Below, one piece after another: positions 29,811 to 39,786 of a DNA stretch of 64,000 bases (positions are counted from its first letter, which is position 1; the number at the start of each line of letters is the position of its first letter). Source of the DNA: Salibacter halophilus (GTDB lineage Bacteria > Bacteroidota > Bacteroidia > Flavobacteriales_G > Salibacteraceae); the NCBI RefSeq assembly GCF_008806325.1, contig NZ_WACR01000003.1:62001-126000 (forward strand), in the 5' to 3' direction. Position numbers and translations under genes: made by a program. The notes beneath the pieces were generated by a model. That model did not search any database. It saw only the letters and a list, made by a program, of their open reading frames with translations, and was not told the origin of the DNA.

Positions 29811-30638
29811 TCACTGTTTAGGATAACCCCTATTGCCTTTTGATTTAATCAAGTACTCCTTTGGCGTTATGCCCGCAAAAGCCTTGAAGTCGCGGATAAA
29901 ATGGGACTGATCTGCATACCCTGCTTGGTAACCAATACTAGTAAGTGAGACAAGGTTTTTTTGGTGTAAAAGATTCAATGCATAATTGAAGCGATGAATA
30001 CGTTTGTAGAGCACCGGGCTGACCCCCAGTTCTTCCTTAAAATTTCGTTCTAAAGTTCTCTCAGATACTTTAAGATTGCGCTGAATGTCGTGCAATTGAT
30101 GACCTTGATAATATAGTAAAAGAGCTTCTTTAGTCCTGTTTAATCCTAGTGTTGGTTTGGTTTTTAGATTACAAAGGAACTGGACCAATGCATTTAATTG
30201 GGTGCTAAGACTGCCGGAAGCAAGCTGTAAACACAATTCTTTGCAAGCTACTAATTCTGATAGTGGCAAAGCTGAATTGGTAAGATCTGCTGCGTTAATT
30301 CCAAAGAGCGTTTTCAGTGCATAAGGCTTCAGTACTATTCCGATGTTACTGTAAGGAGGATTGGCAACAGTAGTTGCCCAGCGAGTCTTTTGGCCATAAA
30401 TCATCAAAGCTGGTAGATCGGAAAAACCATTGATACTAATTGAGCCAGGTATTCCTTGGTAAATTATCCCAGGTTCACCATCAGCTATTAAATTATAGAT
30501 CATTGGGCTCATACTTCCAGCTCTGTAGCTATCGAACCAAAAAAGGGAAACATAATCTCTTAAAAATGGGGGAGCCGGAAATTCATAATACTCCAAAGAG
30601 GAATGGTTTACCAAGTATGTTCCTTTTTCCTTTTTCAT
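29811..30638 (-). CDS. AraC-family transcriptional regulator
   Basis: The C-terminal double helix-turn-helix is clear: 'SERTLERNFKEELGVSP' (first HTH) and 'GYQAGYADQSHFIRDFKAF' with 'GITPKEYL' (second). The N-terminal ~170 residues are a DUF6597-type effector domain ('EFPAPPFLRDYVSLFWF'). The frame is open from 30701, but that would overlap the preceding gene by 58 bp. Starting at the internal ATG 30636-30638 (MKKEKGTYLVN) gives a 275-residue protein and a 5-bp gap, which I prefer. Likely regulates the neighbouring cluster. Confidence 0.87.
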   Translation of the reverse strand: MKKEKGTYLVNHSSLEYYEFPAPPFLRDYVSLFWFDSYRAGSMSPMIYNLIADGEPGIIYQGIPGSISINGFSDLPALMIYGQKTRWATTVANPPYSNIGIVLKPYALKTLFGINAADLTNSALPLSELVACKELCLQLASGSLSTQLNALVQFLCNLKTKPTLGLNRTKEALLLYYQGHQLHDIQRNLKVSERTLERNFKEELGVSPVLYKRIHRFNYALNLLHQKNLVSLTSIGYQAGYADQSHFIRDFKAFAGITPKEYLIKSKGNRGYPKQ

Positions 30639-30643
30639 CAGCT

Positions 30644-31114
30644 TTAAGGCTTTATGTCTTCGAATTTGTTTCCATTCAATCCATAATTGAATTTTTTCCA
30701 TGTAACCAAAACCGGTAGCATGATCAATGTAAATGAAGGTATATTGATAAAATAGACGTTGTAATCTGCTCCAAATGAAAAAGACAATGCACTATCCAAA
30801 ATGAACCAACCTGTCATCGCCAGGGCAATAGCGTTGCGAGCCCATTTCTCCTTGCGTGCAAATGGATACTTGGCGATATACACGATCAGGGTGTGAAAGC
30901 CTACAATGGTGGCCCCGATGATACCGAATAACCAACTTTTGAAAGCCATCATCTTTTCGGAAGGGGCATGGCCGTTAAAGAAGGTTTGGTAGGTGCCTTC
31001 GTTATGTATTTGAAACAGAAAGCTATTTCCCGCAAAGGCGATAAGCAGCCCGATGCTTATGGTAACCAGATTAATGGCTATAAGCCAGTTTTTCCAAAAG
31101 GCAAAGTTTTTCAT
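30644..31114 (-). CDS. Small four-helix membrane protein
   Basis: 156 residues with four hydrophobic helices (about 10-30, 58-78, 92-112 and 122-140). No catalytic or ligand motif seen and no family name I can give securely. Start overlaps the end of the DoxX-like gene by 4 bp (ATGA), so it is translationally coupled to it. Position between DoxX-like and AraC genes suggests a membrane stress or respiratory role, as inference only. Confidence 0.65.
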   Translation of the reverse strand: MKNFAFWKNWLIAINLVTISIGLLIAFAGNSFLFQIHNEGTYQTFFNGHAPSEKMMAFKSWLFGIIGATIVGFHTLIVYIAKYPFARKEKWARNAIALAMTGWFILDSALSFSFGADYNVYFINIPSFTLIMLPVLVTWKKFNYGLNGNKFEDIKP

Positions 31115-31875
31115 CCTGCCTGTTTTTTAAGTTTGTAGCGATACCAAACCATACGTAAAAGCCCGATAATCGTACCTATTGGGATGAGGACGAGTGCCTT
31201 ATAGAAGAATCTTGGGTCTATTTCTTTTAACCAGATACCATTAAGAACTGACAGGCCAAATAGGGTGAATAAGACAACAAGAACTTTGTCTATTGTGGCA
31301 AGATGGCTCAAACGTAAAAGCATGAATGTCAATAGGCCGAGTGCAAGGGAAAGCAATATGTTCAGATGAATGGATGGAAATAATACAGTAAACAGGCTTA
31401 AGACTGATAAACCAATTATTATTTGGGTCAGCTTCTTAGAATACTGATTTTTAATTTTTCCGGATAAGTAATAGAGGAATGGGTTAACCCTTTCTTGATT
31501 TGAAAAAGCATAATATTCTCTATAAATTTCAAAGGTTGTGATACCTAGGAGAACAACATTTATTAGAGGGGTGGCTCCAAAGCCAGCCAACAGTGTAAAA
31601 ATGAAAATAACTAACGTTAGTGGCAAAAGGAGCAACAAACCTGCGCCTGCATAGCGAAGCGACAGCACCAATATACCAGCCACAACCTGAAGGAATGCAA
31701 TTGCGTAGAATAGATAAAGTACACATGCCGAAAATAACTCATCAGGAACCCTTGAAGGCCCAATGACATTACCAATGTAGTCAGGAGCAAGCTTACTAAA
31801 ACCTGCTGTGAGATAGACAAAGCCTAGTACCAATCGAAAAAAAAGCGAAATGATATTTTTATTGGAGTAGGTCAA
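31111..31875 (-). CDS. DoxX-like membrane protein
   Basis: 254 residues, about eight helices. The first ~120 residues carry the DoxX/MauE-type opening 'LVLGFVYLTAGFSKLAPDYIGN' and 'FLQVVAGILVLSLRYAGAG'. The second half adds four further helices. DoxX/MauE proteins accompany thiol or quinone redox systems; here it heads a run with a quinol-monooxygenase-like protein, hydrolase and cupin. No promoter was identified in the 144-bp gap upstream. Confidence 0.72.
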   Translation of the reverse strand: MTYSNKNIISLFFRLVLGFVYLTAGFSKLAPDYIGNVIGPSRVPDELFSACVLYLFYAIAFLQVVAGILVLSLRYAGAGLLLLLPLTLVIFIFTLLAGFGATPLINVVLLGITTFEIYREYYAFSNQERVNPFLYYLSGKIKNQYSKKLTQIIIGLSVLSLFTVLFPSIHLNILLSLALGLLTFMLLRLSHLATIDKVLVVLFTLFGLSVLNGIWLKEIDPRFFYKALVLIPIGTIIGLLRMVWYRYKLKKQAG

Positions 31876-32019: not shown

Positions 32020-33210
32020 TCAACAAATGCGGACTTGCAATGCGTCATAGGCATACACCCAATCCATCTTCTTTTTTTCAAACTTTATAAAATGCCGGAG
32101 AAATAGGTCTCTAAAAAAGACGGCAACCGGATTGGGCTTTGATTTGCTGTTGCCCACTTTTCGAGCTTGTTGGATGATTTTCTTTACCCTTGGTTTGCGA
32201 TGATCTTGAAATCTGGCAAAAGCAGCTTGTGGAGATTTTTCTGTTTTAAGACAACGATAAAGAATGGCAACATCTTCCAATGCTAAGGAAGCACCCTGTC
32301 CAATATGTGGAGAGGTCGCGTGCGCTGCATCGCCCACAAGGCAAACATTAGATGTATACCACATCTCCAGTTCCGGCATATCATAAATGGGATAAGCGAA
32401 AATATCTGTGCTTTGCCGGATAAGTTCCTTGATTGGTGGATGATCTTTTTCATGGAGTTTTATCAGGTTGTTTTTTATTTCTTTCTGCAGAGTGGTTTTT
32501 ATTTCCTCCCGTGTCGGTTCTGCTTTGCGATAGTAATTATTAAACCACCACACCTGATGATTACTAGAGGTGGTGTAACCAAAAAAGGCGCGAGTACCGA
32601 ACGTCATAGACACGGGCTTGGCCTCAAAGCACCAACCTGGAATGGATAGTATTGAGCCTGTTGATAATTGATGAGTGTATTTGGGCTTGTGGGCAAATGG
32701 GAAAATAATTCTCCTGCATTCGGAATGAATGCCGTCTGCACCGAACACAAGGTCCACTGGTTCAAGATTTCCATTTGAAGTAATGGGGAGCACCTGGTCA
32801 TCTGTCTCTTTCAAATTCACGATGGAAGTATCATAAAGCACAGTAATGTCCAACTTTCTCATTTCATTGTGCAATAGTCTACTAATAGATGATCTTTTTA
32901 CCTGAATAGACTGCCATCCGTACTTTTCAACTTGATGATCCGTGTCTAGCTCTGCAATTTTCTTTCCTTTTGCATTGAAGAAGTTGATAGCGCCAGGAGA
33001 ATACTCCCTGTATAGCTTACTTAAGTCAATAAGATCTGAAAGTACACATAGGCCATTGGGTGAAATCCCTAGGAAAAGACCTTCATCTAATTCACTTTCA
33101 TTACGGCTTTCTAAAAGTGTGACCTCTGCACCTAAGCGATGGCAGTAGATGGCTAAAGCCGGGCCTGCTATTCCGCCACCTACAATAAGGATTTTTTTAT
33201 TTACCATCAT
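32020..33210 (-). CDS. FAD-dependent monooxygenase (PHBH/UbiH/TetX fold)
   Basis: 396 residues. The FAD-binding GxGxxG motif is 'KKILIVGGGIAGPALAIYC', the middle DG motif is 'LVFGADGIHSECRR', and the second FAD site is 'LVGDAAHATSPHIGQGASL'. All three motifs of flavoprotein aromatic hydroxylases are intact. The size matches TetX-like antibiotic-modifying enzymes (~390), but assignment to tetracycline is not supported by sequence alone. Its ATG overlaps the preceding 31-residue ORF by 14 bp. Probably part of the MarR-controlled unit starting at 35036. Confidence 0.88.
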   Translation of the reverse strand: MMVNKKILIVGGGIAGPALAIYCHRLGAEVTLLESRNESELDEGLFLGISPNGLCVLSDLIDLSKLYREYSPGAINFFNAKGKKIAELDTDHQVEKYGWQSIQVKRSSISRLLHNEMRKLDITVLYDTSIVNLKETDDQVLPITSNGNLEPVDLVFGADGIHSECRRIIFPFAHKPKYTHQLSTGSILSIPGWCFEAKPVSMTFGTRAFFGYTTSSNHQVWWFNNYYRKAEPTREEIKTTLQKEIKNNLIKLHEKDHPPIKELIRQSTDIFAYPIYDMPELEMWYTSNVCLVGDAAHATSPHIGQGASLALEDVAILYRCLKTEKSPQAAFARFQDHRKPRVKKIIQQARKVGNSKSKPNPVAVFFRDLFLRHFIKFEKKKMDWVYAYDALQVRIC

Positions 33211-33292
33211 TCTTCCATTTGTTTTTTGATTTTAATAAACCAAAAGCGATTAAGGCGGCAAATACAGCCGCAAAAATTAGTTCTGTTCTCAT
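33197..33292 (-). CDS. 31-residue single-helix membrane peptide
   Basis: A short ORF from ATG 33290-33292 encoding MRTELIFAAVFAALIAFGLL and then a Lys/Asn-rich tail: one transmembrane helix with a positive cytoplasmic end. Its last codons overlap the start of the FAD monooxygenase gene (ATGATGGTAAATAA), a typical coupling arrangement, and it begins 6 bp after the stop of the cytochrome gene. It may anchor or assist one of these two proteins. Too short for family assignment. Confidence 0.6.
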   Translation of the reverse strand: MRTELIFAAVFAALIAFGLLKSKNKWKNDGK

Positions 33293-33298
33293 GGTTAT

Positions 33299-34282
33299 CT
33301 ACAATTGATTGACGTAGGCTTTAATTAATTCAGTGCCTTCTTTATGTTTTAAGGTAGTTCCAATTTTGGGCATTACCTCATCGTCCCAGTTGCTTTCCAT
33401 TCTTTCCGGTATATGATAGCGAAGGGGCTGAATGCCGGTTTGATTATGAGGGGTTGAGTACCTTAAGTCTAAAGACCATTCTGATGCCACACCTGACGGG
33501 TTATGACAATGAGCGCAATTGACATCCAAATAAGCTCTCGCTCTTTGTGCTAAGGTGTGATTACTATTATCCCATTGAGGTAGCTCGGGTAAATTATTAG
33601 TTGAACTCCCACTGAGATAACCGTTGCTTATCCAGGTTTCTAACTGAGATTTGCTAGACCCTTGCCAATCTGGGATATTAAGGTTAGCCACTTTGGGTCC
33701 AATAGGTCTTACTCTATTATTAGAGTTGTGGCAAGTAGTACACTCAGAATTTGAGGGGATTTCGTATGTAAATTGCTTGCGAGAGCCATTTGGCAGAAGT
33801 TGTTCCATTGATACTGATGCCCCATCTTCAATTAGGTATGCTTCTGTTTGTTGTGTATTCCATTTATAAACTCCTACATTCCATTTCCCTTTATTTTTGA
33901 TTAATAATCTTGTTTCGATAATTTGCTTAACCCCACTATTCGGCAGTTGGGAGGACTCATAATAAAAGGACTTAGCTATAATAGTGCTTTCAGGATAGTC
34001 AATATTTGAGTTGTTTAGAAGATCCAACTTCTGACCTTTTGGTAGCTTAATGATTCTTTGCTTAGATGCATAATCAGTGAATAAAGGAGTATTCAATTCA
34101 TAAATAAATGCACTTGAGTCTGGCACGAGGTCCTTCAAGGGTAATTGGTATATATTGTATTCTGAGAGTCTATACTTAAATGATATGTTGTTCTCAATAG
34201 GCTCAATAAACCATTGATCTTCACATGCATGGAAGACAGCTATAATACTTAGAACAAGTAAGGTGGTTATTATTTTACGCAT
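33299..34282 (-). CDS. Diheme c-type cytochrome lipoprotein (SO2930-like)
   Basis: 327 residues. The N-terminal lipobox ends 'AVFHAC' (Cys20). Two heme-binding CxxCH motifs are present: CTTCH in 'SNSECTTCHNSNNRVRP' and CAHCH in 'DVNCAHCHNPSGVAS'. The surroundings 'YELNTPLFTDYASKQRIIKLP' and 'EVMPKIGT' match the SO2930/HNE_0200 family of periplasmic diheme cytochromes. It would pass electrons in the periplasm, possibly to the membrane protein encoded just upstream (8-bp overlap). Partner and substrate unknown. Confidence 0.85.
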   Translation of the reverse strand: MRKIITTLLVLSIIAVFHACEDQWFIEPIENNISFKYRLSEYNIYQLPLKDLVPDSSAFIYELNTPLFTDYASKQRIIKLPKGQKLDLLNNSNIDYPESTIIAKSFYYESSQLPNSGVKQIIETRLLIKNKGKWNVGVYKWNTQQTEAYLIEDGASVSMEQLLPNGSRKQFTYEIPSNSECTTCHNSNNRVRPIGPKVANLNIPDWQGSSKSQLETWISNGYLSGSSTNNLPELPQWDNSNHTLAQRARAYLDVNCAHCHNPSGVASEWSLDLRYSTPHNQTGIQPLRYHIPERMESNWDDEVMPKIGTTLKHKEGTELIKAYVNQL

Positions 34283-34781
34283 TTGAATTTCGTTTTACAT
34301 TAGACCAGAGGAGACCAGCAAAACCTAAGTTTATTAGGAAGAAAAGGCCCACCCTGAGATAATTTAGATTTCGCCATTCCGCTGCTTTATCAACTAGTGA
34401 CGGGTCGACCACTGATTGTAGTTCCATGTTTTGAAACTCAATTATTGTTGGTGCGAAATACTGAAGTGTCCATACCCTTACCCCCATATGGGCAACTAAC
34501 AGAAGCAGCATTAGATTACGTGTTTTTTTGAATTTCCAGTTGAAAACAAGTGCTATAAGTATTAATACTTCATGTGAGGAGTGAACAATAATCCAGAAGT
34601 TTTTGAAATCAAGACCATATGGTCCTTTAAAGAAAAATAATGATTCCGGAGGGGCAGCAGTCCAGGCCGGAATCATAATGGCTGTCTCCCAAAATTGAGC
34701 ACCATTCATAATAAAATAGGCTGCGGTCGCGATGAAGAGCCATAAGTTGGCTCGATTTTGTTTTTGTAAAGTGTCGATCAT
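34275..34781 (-). CDS. Four-helix membrane protein, unknown
   Basis: 168 residues with helices near 13-32, 62-82, 90-108 and 138-158. Periplasmic loop includes 'GPYGLDFKNFWIIVHSSHEV', with His residues in and beside helix 2 that could hold heme or quinone. No family recognised. Its end overlaps the diheme cytochrome start by 8 bp and its start is 9 bp after the small HMA-like gene, so all are one unit. A membrane redox partner of the cytochrome is the natural guess. Confidence 0.65.
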   Translation of the reverse strand: MIDTLQKQNRANLWLFIATAAYFIMNGAQFWETAIMIPAWTAAPPESLFFFKGPYGLDFKNFWIIVHSSHEVLILIALVFNWKFKKTRNLMLLLLVAHMGVRVWTLQYFAPTIIEFQNMELQSVVDPSLVDKAAEWRNLNYLRVGLFFLINLGFAGLLWSNVKRNSNA

Positions 34782-34790
34782 ATTTTTTTA

Positions 34791-35036
34791 TCAATGGTTC
34801 ATTATTGCAATAGGTAAGTCTTGAGCTTTAAGCATGTTTTGAATTTCTATGGAGCTGAGAGTATTCGATTTAACGCAGAGCACATTCTCCCAGTCATCGA
34901 TGTCTAATGACCACCCGCTTATTAATTCATGAGAATTGAGCAGTTCCTCCAATAATTTTTTCATGAATGGTTGAAAACCATGCAAAGTAAAAACATGCAC
35001 CTGCTGGAAAGTCCTTGGTATGCTGTTGTTTTCCAT
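34791..35036 (-). CDS. 81-residue protein, degenerate HMA-like fold
   Basis: The pattern beta ('HVFTLHGFQP') - helix ('MKKLLEELLNS') - beta ('WSLDIDDWENVLCVKS') - helix ('SIEIQNMLKAQ') - beta ('PIAIM') is that of ferredoxin-like heavy-metal-associated domains. The metal-binding CxxC is absent, however, so it is probably not a metal chaperone. First gene of the operon driven by the promoter at 35095-35125. Confidence 0.55.
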   Translation of the reverse strand: MENNSIPRTFQQVHVFTLHGFQPFMKKLLEELLNSHELISGWSLDIDDWENVLCVKSNTLSSIEIQNMLKAQDLPIAIMNH

Positions 35037-35083: not shown

Positions 35084-35102
35084 TATCTTAGTTGCAAAGA
35101 TA
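35084..35102. promoter_or_regulatory. MarR-type operator, copy 1
   Basis: TATCTTAGTTGCAAAGATA is a near palindrome (TATCTT with AAGATA at the ends) in the marR/34791 divergent gap. It contains the minus-strand -7 box, so binding would block that promoter. The same 19-mer with one change occurs at 36352-36370. Confidence 0.75.
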
Positions 35103-35125
35103 TATACCTAGTAAGAAATGACAAA
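35095..35125 (-). promoter_or_regulatory. Bacteroidota-type promoter for the 35036 operon
   Basis: On the minus strand: -33 TTTG (35122-35125), 19-nt spacer, -7 box TATCTTTG (35095-35102), the consensus TAnnTTTG. The start codon of the first gene is ~59 bp downstream. The -33 element overlaps the first codons of marR on the other strand. Confidence 0.75.
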
Positions 35126-35597
35126 CAAAAAAGGAAAAAAAGAAGATTCGGTAAGAGAGAGGTTGGATGTACTTGGAAGAGAGATGACTACTCAATCCAT
35201 TCTTTTTCATCAGGCCATCGCGGAAAGTGCTGGACTTAGCGGAACAGATCATAAGTTTATAGACCTGTTCTTTCAGCACGGGTCTATGACTGCAGGTAAA
35301 CTCGCAAATCTTACAGGGTTAACAACGGGTGCGACCACGGGTGTCATAGACAGACTAGAGAAAAAGCAATTGGTTAGGAGAGAGCGGAATCCCAACGATA
35401 GGAGGCAAGTCCTCGTGGTATTGAACGAAAAAGAGGCCCAAGAAAAAATTGGACCTGCTTTTAAACATATGCAAGAAGGATTGGAGAGCTTATATCAGGG
35501 TTTTTCAGAATCGGATTTAGCCATTGTCGAGGAGTTTATGATTAGGACCATCACCTTTTATAAAACTCAGATTGAACAAATTAAGTCTAACCGCTAA
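35118..35597 (+). CDS. MarR-family transcriptional regulator
   Basis: 159 residues. The winged helix is clear: recognition region 'LTGLTTGATTGVIDRLEKKQ' and wing 'VRRERNPNDRRQVLVVLNE' with the family's D-x-R motif. It lies divergent to the cytochrome/monooxygenase operon and shares its regulatory gap. It most likely represses itself, that operon and the pentapeptide gene, whose promoter carries the same operator. MarR proteins usually release DNA upon binding phenolic drugs or on oxidation. Only plus-strand gene in the island apart from spurious frames. Confidence 0.9.
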   Translation: MTNKKGKKEDSVRERLDVLGREMTTQSILFHQAIAESAGLSGTDHKFIDLFFQHGSMTAGKLANLTGLTTGATTGVIDRLEKKQLVRRERNPNDRRQVLVVLNEKEAQEKIGPAFKHMQEGLESLYQGFSESDLAIVEEFMIRTITFYKTQIEQIKSNR

Positions 35598-35673
35598 AAT
35601 AAAGTAGAGTCGTTTCTAGTACTCTACTATTTATCGGCAATTAGATGCATGAAGACTGCCCTTGGATACTGTA

Positions 35674-36327
35674 TTACCGGTCCGATTTTGAAAAATTTGC
35701 ACCTTCAGTGGTTGATTTTTCCAGGGTGGCCCCTCGTAAATCTGCTCTTTCAAAATTCACTTGATTCAACTTAGCCCCTGTAAAATCAACATTGGTAAGA
35801 TCTGCCTTTACAAAGCTGGCACCCGTTAGATCTGCGTTCTTAAATGATGTACCGCTTAGATCACATTTATCAAACTTAACTTCACGCAAGTCCAACCCAT
35901 CAAAATTGCGTATGGCCAGTCTTGATCCCGTGAAGTTTATTCCTGGCTGCAGAATAGCTCTAAGATTAGGGACGCTGCGCAAGTCAATATATGACAGATT
36001 CGCACCTTTAGTGTTTGCATCTGAAAGGCTAGCACTATCTAGATCGGCCTTATACAGATTAGCGTTTTGGAGATTTACCTTATTCAGTGTAGCAGAACTA
36101 AAATCGGTTTTAGATAGATCCGTATTTGAGAAATCCACTCCAGTGAGGTCAAGGCCTGTAAAATCCATATTGGATAAATCAGAATAGGAGTTAGTTCTCA
36201 GGTGTTGCTCTAGTTGTTCTTTAGGCATTTCATTTAAAGCATCTTTTTTAGGGTTTGAGTAATCACAAGAGTTCATAAGAAAAGTTAAGATGGCAACAGC
36301 CAAGGTGATTGTAAAATTGTTTTTCAT
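35674..36327 (-). CDS. Pentapeptide-repeat lipoprotein
   Basis: 217 residues. Lipoprotein-type signal (to 'TFLMNSCDYS', Cys ~21), then from ~50 to the end tandem A(D/N)LxX repeats ('FSNTDLSKTDFSSATLNKVNLQNANL', 'ANLYKADLDSASL', 'ADLTGASFVKADLTNVDFTG') forming a right-handed beta-helix, briefly interrupted near 'NLRAILQPGINFTGS'. Cytoplasmic relatives (Qnr) mimic DNA and protect gyrase, but a lipoprotein would sit in the periplasm or outer membrane, so that role is unlikely. Controlled by the MarR-type operator at 36352. Confidence 0.85.
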   Translation of the reverse strand: MKNNFTITLAVAILTFLMNSCDYSNPKKDALNEMPKEQLEQHLRTNSYSDLSNMDFTGLDLTGVDFSNTDLSKTDFSSATLNKVNLQNANLYKADLDSASLSDANTKGANLSYIDLRSVPNLRAILQPGINFTGSRLAIRNFDGLDLREVKFDKCDLSGTSFKNADLTGASFVKADLTNVDFTGAKLNQVNFERADLRGATLEKSTTEGANFSKSDR

Positions 36328-36351
36328 GAGTATAATAGCTTTGTTTCTAAA

Positions 36352-36370
36352 TATCTTAGCTGCAAAGATA
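36352..36370. promoter_or_regulatory. MarR-type operator, copy 2
   Basis: TATCTTAGCTGCAAAGATA, 18 of 19 identical to the site at 35084-35102, again covering the -7 box of a minus-strand promoter. Confidence 0.75.
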
Positions 36371-36392
36371 ATGTGGAAATTGGATTTTCAAA
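36363..36392 (-). promoter_or_regulatory. Bacteroidota-type promoter for the pentapeptide gene
   Basis: On the minus strand: -33 TTTG (36389-36392), 18-nt spacer, -7 box TATCTTTG (36363-36370), 36 bp before the ATG at 36327. Confidence 0.72.
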
Positions 36393-37208
36393 GAAATATG
36401 AGCAGGAAAAAGCGCCTGCGGCCAAACGGCTGGCTGGCGGCTGCAATGAGTGAGGAACGAACGGATTGCGGACCGCCAGACAAGCTTTAGCGAGCCGACC
36501 TGCGAGTGGAGCAAGGGTGGAGAACAGAGAAAGCCTGAGGAACGAAGGCGGCTGGGCGACATATGTGGACTGACGAAAACGGAGGCGATTGGAGGGCGTA
36601 GCTTTAGCGGAGACCGAAAAGAGCCGAGGCTTGAGGAAGGACTTACACAAGGGCTGGCGTGTTTTTTTGTTGCTTTTCAGGGCTACCTTTAAAAATCAAT
36701 TGCTTCGCCCTGAATACAAAAAACATGACAGCCCGCAGCCCGCAGCGACCCGCAGGCGAGCAAAATTATGGGCAGCCGGTGGACTGCTGACCGGCTGAAT
36801 GGAATGAAGTGAGGGCTCGCAACGAAATGTAATGAAGCGGGACAGCAGGACAGAGAAGGCTGCCGTGAGGATGACGACTGAGCTGCAAGTAGCATGACAG
36901 GCTGCCTGAAAGGCACCCGTAGGGCGTGATATTGCCTGGAACACCTTATAAATTTAACGCTTAGTGGAAGGCTGTAGAAACGGCCTGGCATGGTACTTTG
37001 CCGAAGGAGGAAGACGAACACCGCTTTTCCTGCGTTTTGTGCGGCTGGTTAAGCAAGTGTGGCAACTGAACGGAATGGAGCTTTAGCGGAATGAAGAGAA
37101 GGCGCTACTCTTGCTGCGCGGTGACGGAAGCTGGTGACTGCAAGAAGGGAGGAACGACCGACTGGAAGGAACCTGCTGGAGGCACATTGCTTTATTAAAT
37201 GTGTATTT
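36393..37208. other. ~0.8-kb non-coding, G/C- and purine-rich block
   Basis: No frame here looks coding: those that exist overlap each other on both strands and are rich in Arg/Ser/Pro. The plus strand is biased to G and A, with recurring words: AGCTTTAGCG three times (near 36483, 36600 and 37079), and variants of 'gaacgaa' and 'aatgaagcg'. Composition differs sharply from both neighbours. No group II intron domain V or tRNA is visible. Possibly a transfer-origin or structured-RNA region of the island. Confidence 0.6.
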
Positions 37209-37433
37209 TCAATTGCAACAAGATTTGTCCTGCTGAATCGGTGGACAATTTACCGTACCATAACTGCAATAGACGCAGCAGTCACCTTTTTTGGGTTTTA
37301 ATACTTTGGAGCAGTTCTCGCATTCATAGAAGTATTGACAGGCATCCGTAGGCATGGTTTCTTCTTTCTGAAAACCGCATTTTGGACAAGTAATGATTGA
37401 CGTTGATATAATTTTCATATTCACTCTTTTCAA
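37209..37433 (-). CDS. GDCCVxC-domain protein of mercury clusters
   Basis: 74 residues with a zinc-ribbon-like first half (CPKC near residue 17, and 'CQYFYECENCSKVL') and the defining motif 'GDCCVYCSYGTVNCPP'. The last residues are 'DKSCCN'. These small (seleno)proteins accompany mercury-resistance genes in Bacteroidota and Proteobacteria and probably bind thiophilic metals. The second ATG (MKIIST, residue 6) may be the true start. It follows the MerA-like gene by 5 bp. Confidence 0.82.
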   Translation of the reverse strand: MKRVNMKIISTSIITCPKCGFQKEETMPTDACQYFYECENCSKVLKPKKGDCCVYCSYGTVNCPPIQQDKSCCN

Positions 37434-37438
37434 AATTC

Positions 37439-38785
37439 TTAAAGCATGTATGAGAGATCTGAACCGAAGGTTGGATAGGCATAAATCATCTTTTTTAAAT
37501 CCTTTGATTTCAATCCGGCTGTAATGGCTATCGCAAAAAGATTAATGGTTTCGGCTGCCTCTGGGCCAATTAGATGTGTTCCCAGCAACTGGCCACTATT
37601 TTTATCGGTTATGGTTTTAAAAGCGTATTGATCTTCATTCAAGCGTTTTGCATTGAACCACGAACTTGCTTCCTCATAATTTACTGACACCTCAATATTC
37701 TTTGCCTTAGCAGTCTGCTCCGTTAAACCTACACTGGCAATGGAAGGAATGGTGAAAACCACCGAAGGAATAGCACCATAATCAACAGATTTTTTATTTC
37801 CATTGATGATATTAGTAGCTACCACATGACCTTCCATGACGGCAACAGGAGTCAGAGGCAGGCCAGAAGAGTTAGCCGTATCGCCAGCGGCATAAACGTG
37901 CGAATTCGAAACACTTTGCAGGTGCCGGTTTACTTCAACACCATTAATGCCATGGGAAACTCCGGCTTTATCTAGGGCTAAATCTGCAATGGCCGGCACC
38001 CGACCGGAGGAATTAAAAACAGCTTCGGCCTGAAAATGAACTTCCTTTTCTTCTTGTCGGCCTTTAACGATTAGCATGTTTTTTTCTTTGTGAATTTCCA
38101 ATGCTTCAGTTTCCAGATGGATTTTAACGCCTAATTTTTCTGTAGCCGATTGTAGATGCTTCACGATGTCTGAGTCAAAATTCTCAAGGGGATGAGTGCC
38201 ACGGTGAATAATGGTAACCTCTGCACCTGCCCGGGCCGCAATGTGGGCAAACTCAAAGGCAATATAACCGCCTCCTATGAATAAGATGGAGTCAGGTAAT
38301 ACATCAAGATTCAGAAAGTCTGTACTCGTCAATGCATAATTTGCCCCCGGTATTCTCAGCGGACGTGGTTGAGCACCGGTAGCTATGAGGATCTTTTCAG
38401 CCTCTATCTGCTCATTTCCTAATTGAAGTTTGTTCTTTCCAATAAACTCAGCCTTTTCATGAAAAGTCTTTACTCCATTTTTACGGAAGCCATTTTCTAC
38501 TTTAGCAGGCATTGGCTCCGTAAAGGTGTTTTTAAAGCGCATGAGGTCGCTCCAATTTATTTTCGGTTTTCCGGTAATTCCTTTTCCCTGGAGATTTTCT
38601 GCCATATTTATTGCTTCAGTGGCACTGATCAATACCTTCTTTGGATCACAACCCCTAAGCGCACAGGTGCCTCCGTAAGGTAATTCATCGGTAATGCCTA
38701 CGGATAAACCAGAAGCAGCACATTTATTGGCGACTGTGATACCTGCCATGCCAGCGCCAATTATAAATACATCAAAATGCTGCAT
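37439..38785 (-). CDS. MerA-like FAD disulfide oxidoreductase
   Basis: 448 residues. FAD motif 'FIIGAGMAGITVANKCA', redox-active pair 'GGTCALRGCDPKK' (Cys-x4-Cys), NAD(P) motif 'LFIGGGYIAFEFAHIAARAGAEV' and second FAD motif 'VYAAGDTANSSGLPLTPVAVMEG'. Gene context (MerTP, ArsR, GDCCVxC) points to Hg(II) reduction. However, it has no N-terminal metal domain and no C-terminal Cys-Cys pair, which classical MerA needs to load Hg(II); it ends 'YPTFGSDLSYML'. It could instead be a thiol or glutathione-type reductase serving the cluster. Confidence 0.85.
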   Translation of the reverse strand: MQHFDVFIIGAGMAGITVANKCAASGLSVGITDELPYGGTCALRGCDPKKVLISATEAINMAENLQGKGITGKPKINWSDLMRFKNTFTEPMPAKVENGFRKNGVKTFHEKAEFIGKNKLQLGNEQIEAEKILIATGAQPRPLRIPGANYALTSTDFLNLDVLPDSILFIGGGYIAFEFAHIAARAGAEVTIIHRGTHPLENFDSDIVKHLQSATEKLGVKIHLETEALEIHKEKNMLIVKGRQEEKEVHFQAEAVFNSSGRVPAIADLALDKAGVSHGINGVEVNRHLQSVSNSHVYAAGDTANSSGLPLTPVAVMEGHVVATNIINGNKKSVDYGAIPSVVFTIPSIASVGLTEQTAKAKNIEVSVNYEEASSWFNAKRLNEDQYAFKTITDKNSGQLLGTHLIGPEAAETINLFAIAITAGLKSKDLKKMIYAYPTFGSDLSYML

Positions 38786-38788
38786 GGG

Positions 38789-39403
38789 TTATTGATTTTT
38801 TATGTCAGTCACTTTATAACCTGTGCTATTGATTGCTTTTTCAATTTCACCCACTGAAGTTTTAGAGGAATCAAACTGTACGATGGCATTTTCATTTTCA
38901 TAAGAAGCTTTCACGTCCACGATACCATCAAGTTTATTTACTTCATGGCTGACGTGTTCTTCGCACCCAGTGCAGGTCATGCCGTTTACGAAAAAGGTTG
39001 CTGTTTGCACGTTTTGCTGATCAACAACAATCACTTGCCGATCTTGCGAGGGGTAAAAAACATTTGCATAGAGCGGAAAGGCCAGCATCAACCCAGCAAA
39101 AACCGTTACTATGGCCAGGAATTTTTTGGAATGCCAGAAAGACGGCTTTTCATCATCCTCACAAGCACAATCAATTTCTTCTTTAGAACGTGGCTTTAAT
39201 TTTTGATACCAGGCAAAGCCCAAAACAAGTATAGTAATACCTATTAAGTAGGGACGTGCGGGTTCGAGCCAGGAAAAAGTGGAAGCTGCACCACTGGCGC
39301 CTGCGATCAAAGCCAACACTGGTGTTATGCAACATAGTGACGCTGCTATCGCAGCAACTATCCCTGTTCCTAAAAGTCCTTTAGATGATTTACTTTCACT
39401 CAT
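38789..39403 (-). CDS. MerT-MerP fusion mercury transporter
   Basis: 204 residues. The MerT part has helix 1 with the vicinal pair 'ASLCCITPVLALIAG' and two further helices, with a cytoplasmic 'EIDCACEDDEK' pair. The MerP-like HMA domain follows from ~130 with 'FFVNGMTCTGCEEHVSHEV' (GMTCxxC). It would take up Hg(II) and hand it to the reductase. The stop lies 3 bp from the MerA-like start, and the start overlaps the ArsR gene by 4 bp, so the cluster is one operon. Confidence 0.9.
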   Translation of the reverse strand: MSESKSSKGLLGTGIVAAIAASLCCITPVLALIAGASGAASTFSWLEPARPYLIGITILVLGFAWYQKLKPRSKEEIDCACEDDEKPSFWHSKKFLAIVTVFAGLMLAFPLYANVFYPSQDRQVIVVDQQNVQTATFFVNGMTCTGCEEHVSHEVNKLDGIVDVKASYENENAIVQFDSSKTSVGEIEKAINSTGYKVTDIKNQ

Positions 39404-39786
39404 AATGTGGCTTCTTTTAGGGATGGAACCCGAAGATTTTCCAGCATTGGTTTCAAATCTTTTAATGCTTCATTTTCCAGTGAATAGAAAATGGTCTTGC
39501 CTTCTTTTCTTGAAATAATAATCCGTCCGTCTCGCATTTTCCGCAGGTGCTGCGAAACAGCCGGAACGCTCATTTGTAGGATGTCGGCTAAGTCGCAGGG
39601 ACAAAGTTCTCGTTCTAAAAAGAGGAGGTAAAGCATCTTCAGGCGCACTTCATTTCCTGCCAAAGCAAGCACAGAGGCTAACTGATTTACCTGAGGCTGG
39701 AGATTTTCCAATTCGGACCTTCCTCTTACAATTTGCGCCTGGTCTGCCTCGGCACGTATGCAATTTATGGGATCTGCTTTTGACAT
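39400..39786 (-). CDS. ArsR/SmtB-family metal-sensing repressor
   Basis: 128 residues. The winged helix is 'ELCPCDLADILQMSVPAVSQHLRKMRDGRIIISRKEGKTIFYSL'; the Cys pair in 'LCPCDL' at the start of the recognition segment is the usual alpha-3 metal site of ArsR-type sensors. First gene of the mercury operon, replacing the MerR activator of Proteobacteria. It should repress its own promoter at 39804-39835 and release on metal binding. Confidence 0.9.
   Translation of the reverse strand: MSKADPINCIRAEADQAQIVRGRSELENLQPQVNQLASVLALAGNEVRLKMLYLLFLERELCPCDLADILQMSVPAVSQHLRKMRDGRIIISRKEGKTIFYSLENEALKDLKPMLENLRVPSLKEATL

Follow-up and report, generated by a model that had tools for sequence, protein, structure and literature searches.

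The 64,000-nucleotide stretch of Salibacter halophilus DNA analysed here (the window) carries one 19-bp word twice, near a gene for a MarR-family regulator, which raises the question of whether this regulator reads the word, which genes it would control through it, and which compound would relieve the control. The original prediction had the word at two places, and its coordinates hold exactly: O1 (TATCTTAGTTGCAAAGATA, positions 35084–35102) lies between marR and a divergent operon, and O2 (TATCTTAGCTGCAAAGATA, positions 36352–36370) lies over the promoter of a pentapeptide lipoprotein gene. Beyond what had been described, the word has the structure of an inverted repeat, TATCTTWG-N3-CWAAGATA. 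Each copy forms a palindrome that is not quite perfect (TATCTTAG-N3-CAAAGATA); read on the minus strand, it begins with the –7 box TATCTTTG. Matches to the 19-mer with ≤3 mismatches number 0.03 in the dinucleotide-shuffled window. A search for further copies, proposed with the prediction, was run over the whole 3,122,189-bp genome and returned O1 and O2 only, both for exact (0-mismatch) TATCTTWGNNNCWAAGATA and for the wider pattern TATCTTWRNNNYWAAGATA (expected matches under a first-order Markov model 0.005 and 0.023, respectively). Moreover, 34 genomes of the window's own family, all without this MarR, contain 3 stray palindromes, fewer than a reversed control pattern. With two exact copies against the expectation and family genomes near-empty, we reject the view that the site is a common genomic word. 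The similarity of the two promoters runs on in register downstream of O1 and O2 (AAAGCnATTATAnT, shuffle p 0.0013), and the pentapeptide promoter may therefore be a copy of the marR promoter; a shared function of the downstream stretch would look the same. No Rfam elements were found within the window.

The regulator gene (marR, 35118–35597, plus strand) encodes a 159-aa protein with a MarR winged-helix domain (PF01047, 55.4 bits, cut-off 24.6). No named NCBIfam equivalog was found for it, all scores being far under cut-off. Relatives were sought by the MarR protein alone, first in GTDB genome contigs (9 loci) and further in two samples of 395 genomes each, one from the phylum and one, searched with a MarR profile, from the class. 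Homologues 50–56% identical occur in Chitinophaga, Chryseobacterium, Pedobacter and Cyclobacteriaceae. The clade counts 22 loci with the window's own, and in all but one of them the palindrome starts 24–39 bp ahead of the marR start codon (34 bp in the window); 16 of these 21 sites have no mismatch, 4 have one and 1 has two. Upstream of marR in a Cyclobacteriaceae MAG (L007) and in genome G283 the 19-mer is identical to O1, and FMO-type relatives often have a second, weaker copy 36–37 bp further upstream. No upstream site was found in clade member L051, and the more distant homologues L049 and L050, also without the site, mark the edge of the clade. Among 18 genomes with MarR homologues the exact pattern is mostly single and adjoins marR; the exceptions are sites elsewhere in G293, G299 and one of two sites in G429, and no exact site was found in G139 and G435. 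Because nearly all homologues in the clade have this palindrome ahead of marR, over a target-facing –7 box, the originally proposed repression by MarR from this site is well supported by comparison, as is binding of the window MarR to it, and repressor and operator appear to form a matched pair across Bacteroidota. No publication on this MarR or its operator came up in the literature searches, and tblastn gave no match to the MarR at E 1e-15 in 72,556 plasmids.

Both words coincide with promoters, again as first described. Relative to the Bacteroidota promoter consensus as cited in PMC7366714 (TTTG / TAnnTTTG), TATCTTTG is a perfect match to the –7 box at both sites. The divergent operon promoter (35095–35125, minus strand) has its –7 box at 35095–35102 and its –33 TTTG at 35122–35125, with a spacer of 19; the pentapeptide gene promoter (36363–36392, minus strand) has them at 36363–36370 and 36389–36392, with a spacer of 18. 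We then scored both palindrome halves of each clade locus against TAnnTTTG. The better half aims at the target gene in 17 loci and away from it in 0, with 5 ties, a count in which the loci share descent and are not independent trials. The rule holds both for FMO-type loci, where the target is divergent from marR, and for the other types, where it is downstream of marR. Since the better half aims at the target whatever the gene layout, the operator is, as judged from these scores, built around the –7 box of the target promoter, as expected for repression by occlusion. A –33 TTTG or TTG is often present 18–21 nt upstream on the target-facing strand; no clear –33 was found in FMO-type relatives L005 and L010.

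The genes named in the original prediction are real ORFs. The divergent operon (35036–32020, minus strand) starts with an 81-aa ORF (34791–35036), followed by genes for a 168-aa predicted helical membrane protein (34275–34781), a diheme c-type cytochrome lipoprotein (33299–34282), a one-helix microprotein of 31 aa (MRTELIFAAVFAALIAFGLLKSKNKWKNDGK, 33197–33292) and a 396-aa class A FAD monooxygenase (32020–33210), the main conserved target. The second predicted target (35674–36327, minus strand) is a 217-aa pentapeptide-repeat protein (PF00805, 111.9 bits) with a lipoprotein-like signal, its N-terminal hydrophobic stretch ending FLMNSC. The membrane protein is found, at 38–62% identity, beside marR in 11 other loci, and in a class sample of 227 genomes it occurs only in its own genome, G051 and G059, each time adjoining marR. 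Its model is a helical bundle (pLDDT 77), for which the PDB gave no match at E ≤ 0.001. The three genes for MarR, the membrane protein and the monooxygenase occur together in Chryseobacterium indologenes, Pedobacter, another Sphingobacteriaceae MAG and a Cyclobacteriaceae MAG; marR and monooxygenase occur without the membrane protein in two Chitinophaga; and the membrane protein alone follows marR in six loci (L042, L044, L045, L047, L051, L125). On comparative grounds, the conserved core of the window's clade is marR, the 168-aa membrane protein and the FAD monooxygenase.

The regulon first proposed is thus reshaped: the monooxygenase and the membrane protein are kept in it by conservation with marR, whereas the cytochrome and the pentapeptide site are additions of this genome only, and the membrane protein, which had been read as a partner of the cytochrome, belongs to the conserved module instead. 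The cytochrome, of SO2930 type with CxxCH twice, scores below the cut-off of the SO2930-family model (TIGR03806, 266.9 against 313.3 bits). Its gene sits between those of the membrane protein and the monooxygenase in this genome only; the other seven FMO-type loci lack both it and the 81-aa ORF, for which relatives have no counterpart. A pentapeptide gene under the operator was found in no other tested genome, and the microprotein is particular to this genome among those examined. The microprotein gene and the start of the monooxygenase gene share 14 nt, which suggests translational coupling of the two. On the same strand after the operon (29811–31875) there follow an AraC-type regulator and two membrane proteins, one of 156 aa and one, DoxX-like, of 254 aa. 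Three loci of different types (L045:6201-7285, L008:8481-9556, L009:8481-9556) have a Crp-like regulator and a ~150-aa membrane protein behind marR or the marR–membrane protein pair. For a role in anti-phage defence, PADLOC gave no meaningful match.

Leaving the ligand aside, we put the probability of a MarR–operator switch with these targets at about 0.8; the site-less clade member L051, the lack of a clear –33 in L005 and L010, and the link of O2 to the pentapeptide gene, seen in one genome only, count against it. The locus would be an autoregulated repressor switch in which MarR, as a dimer, occupies the 19-bp palindrome (TATCTTWR-N3-YWAAGATA in its general form), covers the –7 box and the start region of the target, and blocks RNA polymerase. 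From its place between marR and the divergent operon, O1 would control both, and O2 would put the pentapeptide lipoprotein gene under the same repressor. An aromatic toxicant, most likely an antibiotic, would bind MarR and release it from DNA; the derepressed cell would then make the class A flavin monooxygenase, which would hydroxylate the compound, along with the small membrane protein. In this genome the diheme cytochrome c, the microprotein and the pentapeptide lipoprotein would have joined the regulon. By analogy, this is the mechanism of an ordinary MarR switch. MarR, OhrR, HpaR and SlyA likewise pair a small winged-helix regulator with a palindrome over its own and a divergent promoter, and have an aromatic-compound or antibiotic gene as target; the window differs from them in that a Bacteroidota –7 box forms one half of the palindrome and in belonging to no named NCBIfam equivalog.

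Which compound the switch would answer to depends first on its enzyme. The monooxygenase has an FAD_binding_3 domain (PF01494, 66.9 bits) and the GxGxxG, DG and GD motifs of class A flavin monooxygenases, kept in 8 orthologues. Orthologues 51–57% identical lie beside marR in 7 loci, and none was found away from MarR loci in a 228-genome sample at E 1e-45. In sequence and fold the enzyme is nearest to Tet(50-56), 6-hydroxynicotinate monooxygenase (NicC-type) and similar aromatic hydroxylases. Its model (mean pLDDT 67.5) aligns to Tet(55) with a VIA-align Z of 31.1 and rmsd 3.4 over 356 residues (24% identity), a Z tied with those of non-tetracycline enzymes. The class A fold is common to this enzyme, Tet(50-56) and Tet(X), but the tetracycline-destructase model places it far outside the family (NF033476, 84.1 bits, cut-off 550). 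Rox is likewise a class A flavin monooxygenase, with a rifamycin as its substrate (PMC7283461). Its model NF033145 (cut-off 800 bits) is not among the 25 families listed for the window enzyme, and the L012 relative scores 61.9 bits on it; no Rox chains appeared in the PDB and structure lists, a result with which kinship to Rox is still compatible.

The second line of evidence comes from sister regulators. Within this MarR clade, loci that share the operator, none of them picked for its neighbours, carry the gene for the rifampin ADP-ribosyltransferase Arr after marR in five cases (L012, L054, L126, L127, L128) and that for the rifamycin phosphotransferase Rph in two (L043, L046). All exceed curated or gathering cut-offs: the Rph proteins score 1449 and 1417 bits on NF041857 (cut-off 999), Arr of L012 and L054 scores 225 and 154.5 bits on NF033144 (cut-off 130), and Arr of L126–L128 scores 159–163 bits on PF12120. 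The operator of L054 has two mismatches, and in L127 a RibD_C-domain gene stands between marR and arr. Downstream of marR-arr in L126 (2314-3805) is a protein joining a helix-turn-helix domain and pentapeptide repeats, a loose echo of the window's pentapeptide target. Arr or Rph is present in 6 of 7 MarR-clade genomes versus 29 of 326 in the whole sample (hypergeometric p 2e-6, kinship ignored). Genomes of the membrane-protein type have arr in 5 of 6 cases, mostly elsewhere in the genome, and arr is absent from 7 of 8 FMO-type genomes, the window's included. The operator itself accompanies just 1 of the 26 arr loci sampled in Bacteroidota and 2 of the 3 rph loci over the cut-off. We therefore reject the idea that it marks Arr or Rph genes in general; it characterises the MarR clade.

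These findings sharpen, by suggestion, the originally proposed response to a phenolic or redox-active compound: the sister Arr and Rph operons point to rifamycins, and the enzyme resembles tetracycline destructases and aromatic hydroxylases. Because sister copies of the switch control known rifamycin-destroying enzymes, the window switch probably controls an antibiotic- or phenol-oxidising enzyme. In the MarR tree the window MarR groups with its FMO-type relatives, and the other group holds the membrane-protein, arr and rph types together with a second FMO-linked regulator. The branch between the two is long and well supported (0.72, support 99/99), so the ligand of the window MarR may differ from that of the arr/rph clade. 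This branch, the arr-poor FMO-type genomes and the Tet/NicC-like enzyme leave the ligand to inference, with real alternatives.

MarR proteins commonly bind phenolics. The compound could accordingly be tetracycline-like or a small phenolic, in line with the original suggestion, in which case the arr and rph operons would show the repressor family put to another, separate use. The nearest solved structures, Tet(55), Tet(50), 6-hydroxynicotinate 3-monooxygenase and 3-hydroxybenzoate 6-hydroxylase, speak for this reading; the low tetracycline-destructase score speaks against it, as does the lack of a recognisable degradation pathway beside the module in FMO-type loci (neighbour names partly checked). 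On balance we rate it a serious contender at somewhat under even odds. Rifamycin-type compounds are nevertheless the leading single candidate ligand, because same-operator sister regulators control Arr and Rph. In the narrower version of the switch that follows, a rifamycin-sensing MarR would govern a flavoenzyme that inactivates rifamycins as Rox does but has a separate origin; Rox itself demonstrates that class A flavin monooxygenases can inactivate rifamycins (PMC7283461). In Chitinophaga ginsengisegetis (L012:5799-8874) two MarR genes of this family stand in tandem, side by side; a flavin monooxygenase gene follows one and arr the other, and both have an operator of their own. However, that monooxygenase is only 30% identical to the window's, and the long branch, the rarity of the operator at arr loci and the likeness of the window enzyme to tetracycline destructases and NicC-type enzymes all weigh against rifamycin. 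We hold this version tentatively. Its extension to the whole phylum is doubtful: here MarR rifamycin sensors across Bacteroidota would share the 19-bp operator and swap Arr, Rph or a non-Rox flavin monooxygenase as targets, the membrane protein would be a rifamycin-response factor, and the window would be the monooxygenase version with a cytochrome and a pentapeptide lipoprotein added.

Two further readings dispense with the repressor. In Bacillus subtilis helD/pps, convergent promoters form a rifampicin alarm that controls a rifampicin-modifying enzyme, Pps (PMC12802891), and both strands of the palindrome resemble TAnnTTTG, so that O1 and O2 might be read as two face-to-face –7 boxes of a similar polymerase-based alarm. 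We consider this very unlikely: at both O1 and O2 the marR strand has no –33 element, the half facing the other way tends to make a poor –7 box (TATCTTAG), preserving the symmetry and not the strength of a promoter, and the site tracks the presence of this MarR. The B. subtilis alarm has no dedicated repressor. The least credible reading takes the word for a strong promoter core with similarity by chance. In its favour, TATCTTTG is the consensus –7 box, so that half of the word is expected at promoters; against it, the other half is nearly as conserved (positions 1–6, 14, 15 and 17 are invariant in 21 sites) and the genome's only two sites lie 1.27 kb apart.

The repressor switch, by comparison, resembles a known element of another phylum. 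The actinobacterial rifampicin-associated element (RAE) is a 19-bp palindrome overlapping promoters of rifamycin-protection genes, with its factor unidentified (PMC12802891). The operator described here is likewise a 19-bp palindrome over promoters, which in sister loci stands upstream of Arr (5) and Rph (2); unlike the RAE, it travels with its regulator gene, and its target in the window is a monooxygenase rather than a proven rifamycin gene. The MarR family looks like a comparable switch for antibiotic inactivation in Bacteroidota. What appears to be new is that operator and regulator are paired across this phylum and that the pair is linked to Arr and Rph, together with the prediction that the monooxygenase and the membrane protein associated with it serve the same kind of response. 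As the operator is tied to its regulator, members of the regulon can be found by DNA search alone, and a regulator linked to two known rifamycin-inactivating enzymes offers a direct and cheap test of dedicated rifamycin sensing outside the phylum of the RAE.

The surroundings of the locus also deserve mention. A GC-rich, apparently non-coding stretch of ~780 bp (36400–37190) differs from its surroundings by its repeat-like wording; when 257 bp of it were searched, nothing beyond a 75-nt piece (88% identical) turned up elsewhere in the genome. Next door (37209–39786) is a mercury-type resistance cluster encoding a GDCCVxC protein, a MerA-like oxidoreductase, a fusion of MerT with a heavy-metal-associated domain and an ArsR-like regulator, and the neighbourhood may be a resistance island.
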